From the NCBI GenBank assembly GCA_019745575.1, contig JAIETA010000163.1:1-33109 (forward strand): 33,109 nt of DNA. Direction: 5' to 3'. The position numbers and the translations under genes are program-made. This stretch comes from Reyranella sp. (GTDB taxonomy: Bacteria; Pseudomonadota; Alphaproteobacteria; Reyranellales; Reyranellaceae). Below, one piece after another: positions 1 through 9,752 of this stretch (positions within the stretch are counted from its first letter, which is position 1; each line of letters opens with the position of its first letter). Below the pieces are notes generated by a model, which saw nothing but the letters and a program-made list of their open reading frames with translations, did no database searches and had not been told where the DNA came from.

Positions 1-243
1 CGCGGCGGCGATGCGCTTGGCGCTCTGCTCCGCCTCCAGGGCCTCGCGTCGCGGCCGCAGCTCCTCGTCGGCCCGGACCTGCAGCTCCGCCAGCGACAGA
101 TGGGCCATGTGCTGGGGCAGCCGCACATTGTTGCCGTGGATGCGCTTGTAGTAGGCCGCTTCGGCCCACGACAGCGCCTCGATGCGTTCCGGCGGGCGCG
201 CGTGGCCCGGGCCGAAAAGCCGCTCGTTGTCGGTGACTGTCAT
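1..243 (-). CDS. Unrecognised small protein, N-terminal 81 residues (3' end outside the window)
   Basis: The reading frame starts at ATG 243-241 and is still open at position 1, so the C-terminus is missing. The start is supported by an AGGAAA Shine-Dalgarno just upstream and a good promoter at 310-338. The protein is hydrophilic and probably helical, with a conserved-looking core (EALSWAEAAYYKRIHGNN, then VRLPQHMAHLSLAEL) and a charged Glu/Arg-rich stretch. I see no signal peptide or membrane segment and do not recognise the family. A decayed second copy lies at 3974-4152, beyond the GNAT and NRPS-like genes. It aligns over the core but lacks 19 residues of the charged stretch and the whole N-terminus. 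The gene lies downstream of the NRPS-like gene on the same strand but has its own promoter, so shared function is not shown. Confidence 0.65.
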   Translation of the reverse strand, partial: MTVTDNERLFGPGHARPPERIEALSWAEAAYYKRIHGNNVRLPQHMAHLSLAELQVRADEELRPRREALEAEQSAKRIAAA

Positions 244-309
244 GTTCGTTTCCTATCAAGACGGGCCCGAGGGAGGCGCCACCAGCCTAAGGTTTCTTGG
301 CGTTGACCA

Positions 310-338
310 AGTATAGGCACGACAGGATCATATTGCAA
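310..338 (-). promoter_or_regulatory. Sigma70-type promoter of the small gene at 1-243
   Basis: On the minus strand, -35 TTGCAA (338-333) is followed after exactly 17 nt by -10 TATACT (315-310). Transcription would start near 303, leaving a leader of about 60 nt before the ATG at 243. An inverted repeat CTTGG-N6-CCAAG (296-311) overlaps the -10 and start site and could bind a repressor. The same layout is present in decayed form in the second copy (4195-4223). Confidence 0.6.
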
Positions 339-370
339 TAGGCCAAATCCGGTAGGCCGCTGCCCCACCG

Positions 371-389
371 TGCCGGCAGAATGCCGGCA
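371..389 (-). terminator. Hairpin after the NRPS-like gene (candidate terminator, no U-tract)
   Basis: A perfect 8-bp stem, TGCCGGCA-GAA-TGCCGGCA, begins 26 nt past the stop codon of the NRPS-like gene. It has no T-run, so rho-independent termination is only possible, not clear. The identical hairpin recurs at 4256-4274, 27 nt past the stop codon of the cyclase gene. Confidence 0.4.
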
Positions 390-415
390 GTCCGCTGCCG
401 GTCACCTCCCGTCTT

Positions 416-3202
416 TCAGCCTGTCGGGGGAACGGCCGTGGACTTGTGGTGGGCCTGAAGGACCAGACGTGCGAACCGCTCGCTCAGCTCTTCGCCGGCT
501 TGACCGGTCAGCATGGTCGAGTGATCGCCCGGCACGGCGACGATCGAGAGCCGGCTCGTACGCCCGTGCCAGCCGAGATCTTCCGGCGCGCCGGGCCGGT
601 TCTCCTGCGAGCGCAACAGCACGGTCGGCACATCGAGCCGCGGATGGCCTCCGGCGCCGAGCCAGCAGGCGTGGTGGTGGGCGAACAGCCGCATCGTCGC
701 GTGCAGTCGGGCGACGAAAATCACACTGCGCGGCAGCGGCGGATTCAGACCGACGACGGCGCGCACCAGCGCCCTGCCGGCCGGGCTGGCGAAGAATCCG
801 GCCGAAAGCAGAGTCTGAACCAGGCGCGGCCAGTCGCGGCGGCGCAAGCCGCGGCCGTAGCGGCGAATCTCGTCGGCAAAGGATGGCCGGCGCGCCGGAG
901 CGGCCTCGTAGGTCCGGCCGGTGACGTCGGTGTCCAGCACGAGAAGAAGGGCAACCTCGCGCCCGGCGTCGCGAAGCCGCCGGGCGGCCTCGAAGGCGAC
1001 GTCGCCGCCGTCGGAGTAGCCGGCGAACACCAGCGGCCCGACCGGCCGCAGAGCCACGACCTGCCCGACGGCGTGCGCGGCGATCGCCTCGAAGGACGCC
1101 GCGCGGCCGGCAAGCGTCGCGAGGTCCGGATAGCCGATCTGGCGGATGTCGAACTGCCGCAGACAGGCGGCCCGGAACGCCGCGAGGTAGGAATCGCCGC
1201 CGCCGCCCGGCGGAAAGAGAAAGATTGCCGGCTGGTCGGAGGCCAGGGTCTCGCGGGGCAGGGTCAGGCAGCCATCGAGCGCGTGCGCGAGCTGCTCGAC
1301 GGTCATCCGGCCGTCGAAGCGTTCCATGGGCAGCGATCGGCCGCACAACTGCTCGAGGTCGAACACCAGCTGCAGCAGGCGCAGGGAGTCGCCGCCCGAC
1401 TCCTCGAACGAATGCCGGCCCTGTGGCGGTCGGCCCAGGGCGGCGCGCCACGCCGTGTCGACCATCTCGGCCCCGCGGCGGCTGGCCGGTGCCGCCGGCG
1501 CCGCAAGCGGCTCCGCGATCCGGTCCCGTCGCGCCGCATGCGCCAGGAGCGCGTCCTCGTCGACCTTGCGGCCGGGCAGCAGCGGCAAGGCGGAAAGCAG
1601 ATGGATCTCTGCCGGCCGCATGTAGGCGGGCAGCGTGGCGGCCAGGCGGTCGCGCAGAGCGCTCGCCAGACCGGCCGGTGTGTCCCCGTCCGGGACGACG
1701 AAGGCCAGGATGCGCGGCTCGAGGTCGAACCGCCGTGCCAGCACCGCCGCCTCGGCGACACCCGGTGCGCGCCGGAGCTGGGTTTCGATCTCGGCCGGTT
1801 CGACGCGGTTGCCGAGGATCTTGATCTGTCGGTCGCGGCGTCCGAGCGTGACAAATAGGCCGTCGCCGCGCTGTCGCACGAGGTCGCCGGTGCGGTAGAC
1901 TGGAAGGTCGCTGCCTGCCGGGTCGACCTCGAAGGGCCCGGGATGGAGCGCGCCGGCGCGCCAGACGCCGGCCGAGGTCCAGGGGCTGCGCACGACCAGT
2001 TCACCGGCCTCGCCGCACGCGACAGGGCGGCCGGCCTCGTCGACCACGGCGAGGTCGATGCCGGCAAGCGCATAGCCTGCCGGCACGCGGGCGTCCTCGA
2101 CGGGCGGCTCGGCGGGCACGAACCACTGCACCAGCGCCGGCGCCTCGGTGGCGCCGTAGACCGACAATATGCGGCAGTCGGCCGGCAGCACGCGCCGCAT
2201 CTGCTCGAGGTCGATGGCCAGCAGCGCATCGCCCGAGGTCTGGACGCAGCGCAGGGAGGCGAAGGCGCGTCGGGCGTCGGCCAGCCGGCTGACGCTGCGC
2301 CATACGGCGGGAGTCGAGAACATCATGGTCAGGCGCCGGTCCTCGACGGCGCGCACCACCGGGCCGAGCCCGACGCGTTGCAGGTCGAGTTTCACGAGGC
2401 TCGCACCCGACAGCATGACCTCGAAGATCTGCTGCAGACCGCCGATGGTGCTCGGCGAGGCCAGCGACAGCACCTTGTCGTCGGGCCGCAGGTGGACGGC
2501 GTTGATCAGTTCCGAGGCGCGGTGCAGCACGGCGCGCTGCGACAGGGCAATGCCCTTGGGACGGCCCGTGCTGCCGGACGTGTAGACCACGAACGCCGCC
2601 GCCGCCGGCGCAAGCGGCACGGTGGCCGGCGGCGCCACGTGGCTGTCATGACCGACGGCCTTGCCGGCAGCTCCCTCGAGTGCCCCGGCGAGCGCCTCGT
2701 CGAGCGCGATCACGGCCGTGCCGGCCGGCAGCAGCAGGCCGCGGTCGATCTCGTCCTGCCGCATGATCGCCGCGCCGAGGCCGGCATCGCGCACGATTGC
2801 GGCAACGCGGTCCGGCGGATGATGGCGGTCGATCATGATGCAGGGCCGCGCCGCCGCGAGGCAGGCGAGCACGGCCACGGGATAGGCGGCCTCGTTGGGC
2901 AGCAGCACGCCGACCGCCCGGCCCGGCGGCACGGCCGCCTCTATCCGCGCGGCAAGGCGGCAACACGCCCTCCAGATCTCGCCGTAGGTCAGTTGCCCGG
3001 CCGCATCCTCGCAGGCGACGCGATCCGCAAAGGTGCTGGCGGCCTTGGCAAACAGTTCGAGGGCCGGCCGCTCGACCCACGAGGGGTCGAAGGGCGTGAA
3101 TGCGACCGAAGGTCCGTCAAGATCGAGGGGCATGGCCGGCGGGCGCGACCATCGCAGGCCGGCCGGCGCCGAGGGAGTTGGGGCGGAGGGCGGAAGGGTC
3201 AT
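416..3202 (-). CDS. Stand-alone NRPS-like protein, A-T-TE architecture
   Basis: A 928-residue protein starting at ATG 3202, 23 nt after the GNAT gene. Residues about 45-560 are an AMP-forming adenylation domain: A3 [13 protein letters not shown] (205-217), YGATE (349-353), YRTGD (436-440), A8 from LGRRDRQIK (453-461) and a candidate A10 lysine K546. Residues about 575-645 are a carrier domain with GGDSL, phosphopantetheine site Ser606. Residues about 655-920 are a thioesterase with GYSDG (Ser730), a likely Asp near 757 and His894. There is no condensation, reductase or epimerase domain. By eye, the position of GrsA Asp235, which holds the alpha-amino group, is Ile253, so a standard alpha-amino acid substrate is doubtful. 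The protein probably activates one carboxylic acid, loads it on its own carrier and releases it as free acid, ester, amide or dimer. The product is unknown. The GNAT partner could acylate substrate or product. Confidence 0.9.
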
Positions 3203-3225
3203 CGACGGCGGTGAACGGTCTGACC

Positions 3226-3891
3226 TCAGGAGGCGCGGAACAGCGGTTCGACGAAGCCGCGTCGGGCGAGAAACAGGGGCCGCGATCGCGCGGTGCGCTG
3301 GATATAGAACACGCGGCCGCACTCGCGCCAGCCCAGCGTCGCCAGGCCGCCATGGCTGCCCGTTCGGTCGAGGCTGGCGAGCGTATAGGCGTGGCGGTCG
3401 CCGCGGTCGCGCGCATGGCTCAACATCGCACGCAGGACGAAGGCATGAAGGCCGCGACCGCGGAATTCGGCCGGCGTCAGCGCGTCGGTGGTGTAGACCT
3501 CGCCGGGCTTCAGGCGGATCGGATGGCCCGGCAGGGCATCGCCCCAGCTGGCGCAAAGCCAGTTGATGTGGGCCACCCGCCCGCGATGGCTGGCGATGAA
3601 GCAGAGTTCGCCGCGGCGCAGGCGATCGAGATAGGCCGCCCGACCCGCCGTCCGGGCGTCGATGCCGTCGGTCGCCTCGCCGAGGAACAGCCACGGGTCG
3701 CCGGCATAGAGGGCGCAGATCAGGTCGAGGTCGGGCTCGGCTGCGATGCGCAACGAGACCTCGAGCGGCGGCGCGATCTCGGGCAGCGGCGGCGCGAGAG
3801 GCCGTTCCAGCAAGACGTCGCCGTGCAGCTGGCCGACCGGCGCGGCGAGGCGCTTGCCGATCGTCCAGAGTCGCGCCGGCATCTTCATCAT
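3226..3891 (-). CDS. GNAT-family N-acyltransferase
   Basis: A 221-residue protein. The start is taken at the tandem ATG-ATG (3891/3888), since further upstream the frame runs through the decayed repeat copy. Motif A of the GNAT fold is seen as TPAEFRGRGLHAFVLRAML (139-157), with RGRG (144-147) as the acetyl-CoA pyrophosphate loop. The preceding strand GEVYTTDAL and the later FYIQRTARSRPLFLARRGF fit the usual C-terminal part of such enzymes. No signal peptide is present. It is followed after 23 nt by the A-T-TE gene and is very likely co-transcribed with it, which suggests that it transfers an acyl group to the substrate or product of that enzyme. Acceptor and donor cannot be read from the sequence. 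Confidence 0.8.
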   Translation of the reverse strand: MMKMPARLWTIGKRLAAPVGQLHGDVLLERPLAPPLPEIAPPLEVSLRIAAEPDLDLICALYAGDPWLFLGEATDGIDARTAGRAAYLDRLRRGELCFIASHRGRVAHINWLCASWGDALPGHPIRLKPGEVYTTDALTPAEFRGRGLHAFVLRAMLSHARDRGDRHAYTLASLDRTGSHGGLATLGWRECGRVFYIQRTARSRPLFLARRGFVEPLFRAS

Positions 3892-3973
3892 TGGCCGGCG
3901 GCCGGCGGGACAAGCGGCGGGGTGGGCTGGCGGCCGTGGGGCCTGCTGTCCGCGTTCTGGGCGTTCATGGTTT

Positions 3974-4152
3974 TCAGTCTCGCGCCGGATCCGCGGGATT
4001 GGCAACGGGGTTGCCGGCGGCGATGCGCTTGGCGCTGCGCTCGGCCAGCGACAGATGGGCCGCATGCCGGGGTAGCCGCACATTGTCGCGGTAGATGCGC
4101 TTGTAGTCGGCCGCTTCGGCCCACGACAGCGCCTCGATGCATTCCGACGGGT
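3974..4152 (-). pseudogene. Decayed copy of the small ORF at 1-243
   Basis: The minus-strand frame encodes ECIEALSWAEAADYKRI, then VRLPRHAAHLSLAER and SAKRIAAG, followed by a short tail ending at TGA 3976-3974. This matches the gene at 1-243 but lacks 19 internal residues (57 nt, in frame) and its N-terminal part. The DNA that carries the start codon and Shine-Dalgarno in copy 1 is absent here and no replacement start is obvious. I regard it as a non-functional remnant of a duplication. Confidence 0.75.
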
Positions 4153-4194
4153 GCGGGCGGGGCGCCGCCGGCCTGGGGTTCTTGGTCTTGGCCA

Positions 4195-4223
4195 AGCATA
4201 GGCATGACAGGATCGTATTGAAG
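4195..4223 (-). promoter_or_regulatory. Weakened duplicate promoter upstream of the GNAT/NRPS-like pair
   Basis: This is the same position in the repeat as the promoter at 310-338. The minus strand reads CTTCAA (4223-4218), 17 nt, TATGCT (4200-4195). The inverted repeat CTTGG-N6-CCAAG is kept at 4181-4196. With its own ORF dead, any activity left would read into the GNAT gene about 300 nt downstream. Confidence 0.35.
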
Positions 4224-4255
4224 TCGCCTAGATCCGGTAGGTCGGCCCCCCACCG

Positions 4256-4274
4256 TGCCGGCAGAATGCCGGCA
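4256..4274 (-). terminator. Hairpin after the cyclase gene (candidate terminator, no U-tract)
   Basis: TGCCGGCA-GAA-TGCCGGCA again, identical to 371-389 and 27 nt past the cyclase stop codon. No T-run follows, so its role as a terminator is inferred from position alone. Confidence 0.4.
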
Positions 4275-4301
4275 GTCCGCCGGGCGACCGGCCGGCCCGT
4301 C

Positions 4302-5255
4302 TCAGCGGGCGCCGTCGATCTCGGCGAGGCGGATCTCGGCCAGGGCCTTGAACTCGCCCTCGGGATACTTCTCGAGATAGGCGTGCAGCGAGGCCGGGTT
4401 GTCGCTCTCGCGCACCGATTCCCAGAACGACAGTTCGACCTCGCGGTCCTGCGGATCGCGCATGCCGCCCTGGGCCGAGGCGAACTCTTCGAGGCGGGTA
4501 CGCGCCAGGGCCGCGAAGCTGCCGTCGGGATACTGCTCGAGGTAGGCCTCGTAGTCGGCGGCGCGCGCGCTCTCCTTGATCGATTCCCAGAACACGATCT
4601 CGACCGACTGCTGCTCGGCCGCCGTCGGCTCGGCGGGCGGCGTCTCGACCGACAGCCGGTCCGTCGCCGCGGACTCGCGTGCGAGTTCGATCGGCACCGC
4701 CAACGGCGTCTCGTCGTCGCCGTCGGCGGCATCGGGCAGCAGGCGGAAGACGCGGATCGGCTGGGCGATGTTCTTGACCGTCTGCTCGCCCAGGTCCCCG
4801 AAACCGTAGGGCACCTTGTGCCTTATGTGATCGCGTACGCCGCGCGAGATGCAGATGCCGCCGGCCGCGGCGAGCCCCTCGAGGCGCGCCGCGATGTTGA
4901 CGCCGTCGCCGAAGATGTCGCCGTCTTTCACCATGACGTCGCCGACATTGATGCCGATGCGGAAGAGCATGCGCTTGTCCTCGGGCAGCGCCTCATTGGC
5001 CGAGGCGAGGTCGCGCTGGATATCGACGGCGCAGTCGACGGCGGCGAAGACGCTGGCGAACTCGGCCAGAATGCTGTCGCCGGCCGTGCCGCAGATCCGC
5101 CCACCGTGCCGGGCGATCAGCGCATCGGTGACGGCGCGGTGCGCCGACAGGGTCGCGAGCGTGCCTTCCTCGTCGGTGCCCATCAGGCGGCTATAGCCCT
5201 CGATGTCGGCAGCGAGGATGGCGATCAGCTTGCGTTCGAGCGGCGGCGCTTCCAT
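4302..5255 (-). CDS. Class III adenylate/guanylate cyclase with two C-terminal repeats
   Basis: A 317-residue protein from ATG 5255; GTG 5270 in the same frame would add five residues, and neither start has a clear Shine-Dalgarno. Residues about 7-175 are the catalytic domain. The metal-binding aspartates are in LAADIEGYS (D17) and GTAGDSILAEF (D60), and the transition-state residues are in FGDGVNIAARLE (N120, R124). All key residues are present, so the enzyme should be active as a dimer making a cyclic nucleotide. After a Glu/Ala-rich linker come two repeats of about 40 residues (218-257 and 273-312), each built on FWES-x5-14-YL-x-YP-x-G-x-F-x-LA-x-x-RL. No membrane segment or sensor domain precedes the catalytic part, so regulation may come through the repeats. 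The gene is divergent from the CBS gene. Confidence 0.9.
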   Translation of the reverse strand: MEAPPLERKLIAILAADIEGYSRLMGTDEEGTLATLSAHRAVTDALIARHGGRICGTAGDSILAEFASVFAAVDCAVDIQRDLASANEALPEDKRMLFRIGINVGDVMVKDGDIFGDGVNIAARLEGLAAAGGICISRGVRDHIRHKVPYGFGDLGEQTVKNIAQPIRVFRLLPDAADGDDETPLAVPIELARESAATDRLSVETPPAEPTAAEQQSVEIVFWESIKESARAADYEAYLEQYPDGSFAALARTRLEEFASAQGGMRDPQDREVELSFWESVRESDNPASLHAYLEKYPEGEFKALAEIRLAEIDGAR

Positions 5256-5421
5256 GTCGGTGGGGCTCACCGGCCGGCGGCGCGCAATGGCGCCCGGGCA
5301 TCTGACTTCGAGGGCCGGAACATCGATGACTCCTGGCGGCGGTTGCCGGCAGGAGAGTTAACGCCGCCGGACGCCGCATGTTCCGCAAGCGGCTGCGGCG
5401 AGGAAGGCGCTACCGTCGATC

Positions 5422-9046: not shown

Positions 9047-9349
9047 GTGGAAAAGCGCACACTGCACTACGATCTGGCCCGCATCCAGGCGGATGTGCGG
9101 CGGCTCGGCGCGGCGGCGTTCACCAGGACCGCCCTCGACGGCGGCCGGGCAATGGGCCTCACGTCGGCGGAGATGCTCGGGGTGATCGCCGCGCTGTCGC
9201 GGCGCGAGTTCTACAAGTCGATGACGAGCTATGCCGACCACCGCGTATGGCAGGACGTCTATCACGCACCGACGCCGGTGCGGAAAGAGGCCTACATCAA
9301 GGTGACCCTGCGCGACGGCGCGCCGGTGATCCAGTTCAAGGAGAGGTGA
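9047..9349 (+). CDS. mqsR: MqsR-family toxin (mRNA interferase)
   Basis: A 100-residue protein with GTG start at 9047, chosen because the product begins MEKRTLHYDL, like E. coli MqsR (MEKRTPHTRL). The conserved stretch REFYKSMTSYADHRVWQDVY is followed by AYIKVTLRDGAPVIQFKER. The active-site residues of MqsR fall at K57, Q69 and Y83, so the toxin looks intact. It is a ribonuclease of RelE-like fold that cuts mRNA, mainly at GCU in E. coli. It is the first gene of a two-gene operon; the antitoxin gene begins one base after its stop. The Shine-Dalgarno is weak, which may keep toxin levels low. Confidence 0.92.
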   Translation: MEKRTLHYDLARIQADVRRLGAAAFTRTALDGGRAMGLTSAEMLGVIAALSRREFYKSMTSYADHRVWQDVYHAPTPVRKEAYIKVTLRDGAPVIQFKER

Positions 9350-9350
9350 G

Positions 9351-9752
9351 ATGCCACGGCGCTGCCCGAACTGCGACTCGCGCAAGGCGATGAAGCGTTT
9401 CGAAAACGGGACCTTCACGATCGGGCATGCCGGACTGGAAACGACGGTCGACGGTCTGTCGGGATGGCGTTGCGCGGCCTGCGACGAAGTCGAATTCGAC
9501 GCGAGAAGCGCCAAGCGCTATGCCGCGGCCGGCGACAGGCTGGTGCTACAGGATCGCGAGCGGCAGCGCCGGGAAGTCCGTCGCATCCGGCGCAAGCTCG
9601 GCCTCAGTCAGGTCGCGGCCGCCCGCCTCACGGGCGGCGGCCACAACGCCTTCTCGCGCTACGAGCGCGGCGAGGCGGTGCCGCTGCCGGCGGTGGTCAA
9701 CCTGCTGCGGCTGCTCGACAAGCATCCGGAACTTCTGAAGGAGCTGGCGTAG
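9351..9752 (+). CDS. mqsA: MqsA-family antitoxin and repressor
   Basis: A 133-residue protein, one base after mqsR, with GGAGAGGTG before the ATG. The N-terminal zinc site has C5 and C8 (RCPNCDS) plus C41 and C44 (WRCAACDE). The C-terminal helix-turn-helix begins at LGLSQVAAARLTGGG and contains NAFSRYERGEAVP, whose N99 and R103 match the base-reading residues of E. coli MqsA. The tail LLRLLDKHPELLKEL is also like E. coli. It neutralises MqsR through the zinc domain and represses the operon at the palindrome 9021-9035. Confidence 0.93.
   Translation: MPRRCPNCDSRKAMKRFENGTFTIGHAGLETTVDGLSGWRCAACDEVEFDARSAKRYAAAGDRLVLQDRERQRREVRRIRRKLGLSQVAAARLTGGGHNAFSRYERGEAVPLPAVVNLLRLLDKHPELLKELA

Follow-up and report, generated by a model that had tools for sequence, protein, structure and literature searches.

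A direct repeat of a dispersed HTH gene family around a GNAT/NRPS-like gene pair in Reyranella

In Campbell-type integration, or in tandem duplication with an insertion between the copies, direct repeats flank the inserted DNA, one copy is broken, and relatives carry one copy without the insert, all of which is also the case at the locus described here. In the REP/RAYT system, the RAYT genes are IS200/IS605-type transposases lying between two inverted REPs, of which there are usually more than 100 per genome (PMC2817692). A survey of concertedly evolving gene families in prokaryotes lists 26 genes, mostly in important complexes and pathways (PMC6053082). We analyzed a Reyranella locus that touches each of these systems, in a window of 33,109 nucleotides (the whole stretch of DNA under study) beginning at the end of contig C338.

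Layout of the repeat and its two copies

On the minus strand, the genes follow one another in the originally predicted order of cyclase, broken copy, GNAT-like gene, NRPS-like gene and outer copy. The features concerned are as follows.

1–243, minus strand: outer copy, an HTH-family gene visible over its first 81 codons, with 65–71% identity to the N-termini of full-length relatives (G030, G081)
310–338, minus strand: putative promoter of the outer copy, of sigma-70-like type (TTGCAA and TATACT, 17 nt apart), recognized by eye in the sequence
371–389, no strand assigned: hairpin of the outer copy, TGCCGGCA-GAA-TGCCGGCA, exact pattern
416–3202, minus strand: NRPS-like gene, 928 aa, with Pfam AMP-binding, AMP-binding_C, PP-binding and Thioesterase; orthologues in G077, G079 and others
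3226–3894, minus strand: GNAT-like acetyltransferase gene, matching GNAT only weakly (TIGR03827 at E = 5e-4, far short of the cut-off)
4012–4280, minus strand: inner copy, a broken 5' portion of the HTH gene seen in the outer copy, without start codon, aligned with the outer copy and the G081 copy
4256–4274, no strand assigned: hairpin of the inner copy, identical sequence, exact pattern
4302–5270, minus strand: adenylate/guanylate cyclase-domain gene adjoining the inner copy (Pfam Guanylate_cyc), with orthologues of 82–87% near alaS in eight relatives

The predicted direct repeats were borne out by a local alignment of positions 3–395 with 4015–4280, in which 235 of the 266 aligned bases are identical (88%, with 127 gap bases) and whose score of 340 lies well above the maximum of 129 among 500 shuffles. 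The hairpins also stand where expected, about 26 nt past the preceding stop codon, the distances being 26 nt from the NRPS stop (416) and 27 nt from the cyclase stop (4302). The only other DNA match to the repeat in this genome (C260:4613–4673) was inspected, and no family gene was seen there. The window gave no Rfam or tRNA hits.

Since the window begins at the end of C338, the outer ORF runs off base 1 after 81 codons, and what had been taken for a small ORF is in fact the 5' part of an HTH gene of about 235–278 codons. For the same reason the repeat has no definable limit at its 3' end, the outer copy being cut at exactly that point. The contigs C65 and C279 were considered as carriers of the rest of the outer gene and rejected, their ends carrying other family members. 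The inner copy has lost its start, as predicted, and shows two main losses of about 57–60 bases each rather than a single loss of 57 nt; one takes the start codon region and the other lies near the 3' end. Its promoter boxes are unlike those of the outer copy. On the cyclase side, a suggestive extension of the repeat was found for the 30 nt adjoining the hairpin segment (13 of 2000 shuffles; one of four lengths tried, uncorrected), and a longer reach into the cyclase gene was rejected, the longer stretches among the four giving no such signal.

The outer and inner copies are nearer each other (88%) than either is to the G081 copy. Their dS is 0.13 (33 codons), against 0.38 between the outer copy and G081, which roughly dates the duplication to a time later than the divergence from G081, and dN/dS is about 0.8 between the two copies and 0.3 between the outer copy and G081, on 33 codons with very few sites. 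The assembly is of metagenome type and many contigs of the clade end inside HTH genes, as C338 does, so that a chimeric contig, or the double placement of one copy, had to be considered. We regard such an artefact as very unlikely: with a 12% difference over the aligned bases, several indels and different neighbors, the copies are two distinct sequences.

Elsewhere in the window, an MqsR/MqsA-type toxin-antitoxin pair lies at 9047–9752, and an MqsA-type antitoxin gene is also found beside an HTH-family copy in G030 (L126 3826–4236). The 3' part of the cyclase gene (4307–4605) contains two direct repeats 165 bases apart and about 74% alike, corresponding to a repeated segment of about 55 residues.

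The alaS–S6199 interval and the origin of the arrangement

We compared the interval between alaS and S6199 in related genomes. As a general observation, its gene order varies between species (L059–L066, L127, L130), with the cyclase gene on either side of S6199, the CBS gene in different places, and the HTH gene found in some species, broken in others and absent from the rest. In G081 the stretch from alaS to the cyclase gene contains a single intact HTH gene and no GNAT/NRPS pair, and G032 has an HTH remnant directly after the cyclase stop; the single module originally expected in relatives without the pair was thus found, intact in one and as a remnant in the other. The HTH gene lies between alaS and S6199 in G010, and between the CBS gene and S6199 in G030, which has no cyclase gene there, while G063, G080 and G023 have the same interval without an HTH gene. 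The upstream and coding sequence of the outer copy is closest to the G081 copy (score 362, compared with at most 271 for the other family members compared), and in a protein tree the outer copy stands with the alaS-site copies, apart from a second conserved-site group; the inner order of this tree is not settled, given its 81 codons and the long branch of G010.

The gene looks resident at the alaS–S6199 site, because it occupies the same interval in four genomes, with a remnant in a fifth; the count of four includes the present genome (G000), whose alaS side is assumed, as its alaS is on another contig that is itself cut inside alaS. This distribution speaks against the original suggestion that the small ORF module is itself the unit of mobility, and likewise against a mobile hairpin-promoter-HTH module that carried or flanked the pair in the manner of a composite transposon. 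For a mobile module one may cite the dispersal of the family, in one subfamily of which similarity stops sharply at about −87 and about +850 relative to the ATG, and the recurrence of the hairpin at other HTH loci of this genome. Old paralogues whose conservation is confined to promoter and gene would, however, show similar limits; no transposase domain reached the Pfam cut-off in five full-length relatives, and neither a target duplication nor terminal repeats were recognized. We therefore consider a mobile module improbable.

The hairpin itself is of narrow distribution. Counting exact copies and leaving out diverged ones, the pattern occurs at five places in this 4.9-Mb genome, once in G079 and nowhere else among the 65 genomes, and a large repeat family was rejected on the grounds that just 2 of 65 genomes have the exact pattern. 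The sites beyond the window are L132 5147–5165, L133 4894–4912 and L134 3733–3751. Four of the five adjoin HTH-family genes or remnants (both window copies, C172 and C102), an association noticed after the fact, and the HTH ORF on C102 is broken and visible over only about 40 codons; at the fifth, on C126, the promoter is similar and no HTH gene was seen. The G081 copy bears a related hairpin and promoter, with TTTACA/TATAGT-like boxes at the position matching the outer promoter, and the G030 sequence is a direct repeat that forms no hairpin. A general role of the hairpin as part of the HTH module was rejected, most scanned copies being without such a stem upstream. The outer hairpin folds as an 8-bp stem within a 39-nt segment no more stable than its shuffles (z = −0.65), and a classical terminator is not evident, there being no T run after the stems.

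The NRPS-like protein combines adenylation, carrier and thioesterase domains, and the NRPS proteins of the different genomes align across nearly their whole length. GNAT orthologues of 50–70% were found in nine other genomes, all at other loci (a weak hit in G007 was set aside). The two genes are adjacent in G077 and G079 and are separated by one gene in G006, G015 and G062. The GNAT of this genome is nearest to that of G077 (70%, compared with 57% for G079), yet its alaS is slightly nearer to that of G079 (86.4%, compared with 83.8% for G077), a mismatch in sequence affinity that suggests horizontal movement or differential loss. As separate observations, GNAT-like and single-module NRPS-like genes recur together in Reyranella (L122 6694–10045, L123 7085–10458 and window 416–3894), and in several genomes, read by eye, the pair is near branched-chain amino acid type transporter genes.

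Two old HTH paralogues around an ancestral GNAT/NRPS pair, parts of which were lost by relatives, would agree with the losses common at this locus (the remnant in G032 and the empty intervals of G063, G080 and G023). On the other hand, the pair was found between two modules in no other genome examined, a conserved pair flanked on both sides by intact paralogues was likewise seen in none of them, and elsewhere the pair is at unrelated loci; moreover, the greater likeness of the two copies to each other than to the G081 copy is as a duplication after the split predicts. Old paralogy is thus an unlikely account.

We conclude instead that the pair was probably inserted at a lone HTH gene already resident there, whose 5' part was duplicated, a reading based on a comparison with other species, no conspecific strain lacking the pair being among the genomes. 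As the relatives show, an ancestor of this Reyranella had one HTH gene, with a promoter of its own, beside the cyclase gene on the alaS side. The GNAT-like and NRPS-like block would then have been inserted beside or inside this gene in the lineage of this genome, duplicating a segment from about the cyclase stop through the hairpin and promoter to at least 80 codons. As far as visible, the partial copy left beside the cyclase gene would have decayed, and the outer copy, which we assume to be full-length and joined to the original flank, would have retained promoter and start. The geometry fits a single crossover (Campbell-type integration) or a tandem duplication with insertion between the copies, the type of crossover being an inference. 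Of the original proposal, insertion with duplication is favored by the single module in G081, the remnant in G032 and the pair at other loci. Other histories of the locus are possible, since gene order in the interval varies among species.

A dispersed HTH family with a small-terminase-like region

The HTH gene belongs to a little-known DNA-binding family that has 7 to 25 members in related genomes. In the genus Reyranella, 16 of 65 genomes have 7–25 matches each to the family profile, 4 more have one each and the other 45 have none; outside the genus but within the same taxonomic family, ten matches were found in one genome and a single match in each of two others. A tree of alaS, of uncertain rooting, groups most of the 16 HTH-rich genomes, with G010 apart. 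Full-length relatives are 235–278 aa long in the nearest subfamilies and up to 376 aa in another, and carry an HTH region. Solved structures gave weak matches only, the best being lambda CII (E = 0.046), and a literature search on multi-copy orphan small-terminase-like families found nothing direct. The gene most likely encodes a regulator that binds DNA, perhaps at its own promoter, given the CCTAT motifs common to the promoters of the family near the −35 and −10 boxes.

One subfamily was compared at 29 loci from eleven genomes, 24 of which fall in eight shared sites with a flank similarity of about 81–94%. Among the 26 loci with enough sequence, from ten genomes, mean nucleotide identity was 88.7% between different sites of the same genome and 82.4% between the same site of different genomes. 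Grouping by genome required 9 label changes, against a shuffled mean of 14.1 and with none of 200 shuffles as low; grouping by site required 13, a number as low being reached in 46 of 200. The genome signal may partly reflect uneven relatedness of the sampled genomes, and several forks are weakly supported, so that the sequences are suggestive of concerted evolution of this subfamily. Its copies (L008, L014, L015, L022, L026, L175–L194) sit at conserved chromosomal sites, and many contigs end inside them. At family site B the upstream regions differ, and some contigs break within the HTH gene.

Because this other subfamily is dispersed and apparently homogenized within genomes, copies of the family may plausibly recombine with one another, for the clade in general rather than for this event in particular. 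One might go further and imagine a clade-specific dispersed family that is kept alike by gene conversion and whose copies give homology for rearrangements bringing cargo, such as the GNAT/NRPS pair, an idea that we hold to be rather doubtful. The rearrangement would be an ordinary gene acquisition with a flanking duplication, and the HTH family is the better lead: the better question is why one Reyranella group retains 7–25 genes from a phage-like family of DNA-binding proteins, and whether some of these genes stay similar through recombination.

Comparison with known systems

Campbell-type integration differs in that no circular donor, integrase or plasmid marker was seen here and the outer junction is at the contig end. 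The phage terminase small subunit phrog_4044 is matched across the HTH region by five full-length relatives, some strongly and some weakly (E = 3.9e-15 to 1.1e-3), the window's own 81 codons stopping before that region. In contrast to a phage gene, the family is chromosomal and has many dispersed copies, and no relative was found in viral contigs, phage records or plasmids. As to an adjoining large terminase gene, as in a phage or prophage, the neighbors of the HTH genes were read by eye, and we do not file the HTH gene as a phrog_4044 phage terminase member. With REP/RAYT (PMC2817692) the locus shares a short palindrome adjoining an ORF. The palindromes are, however, not abundant (five exact copies in 4.9 Mb) and stand on one side of each gene, and the five full-length relatives had no Pfam match to an IS200/IS605-type tyrosine transposase. 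With the concertedly evolving prokaryotic families (PMC6053082), one HTH subfamily shares same-genome copies that are closer than same-site copies elsewhere, although here concerted evolution is only suggested, and for an orphan HTH family.
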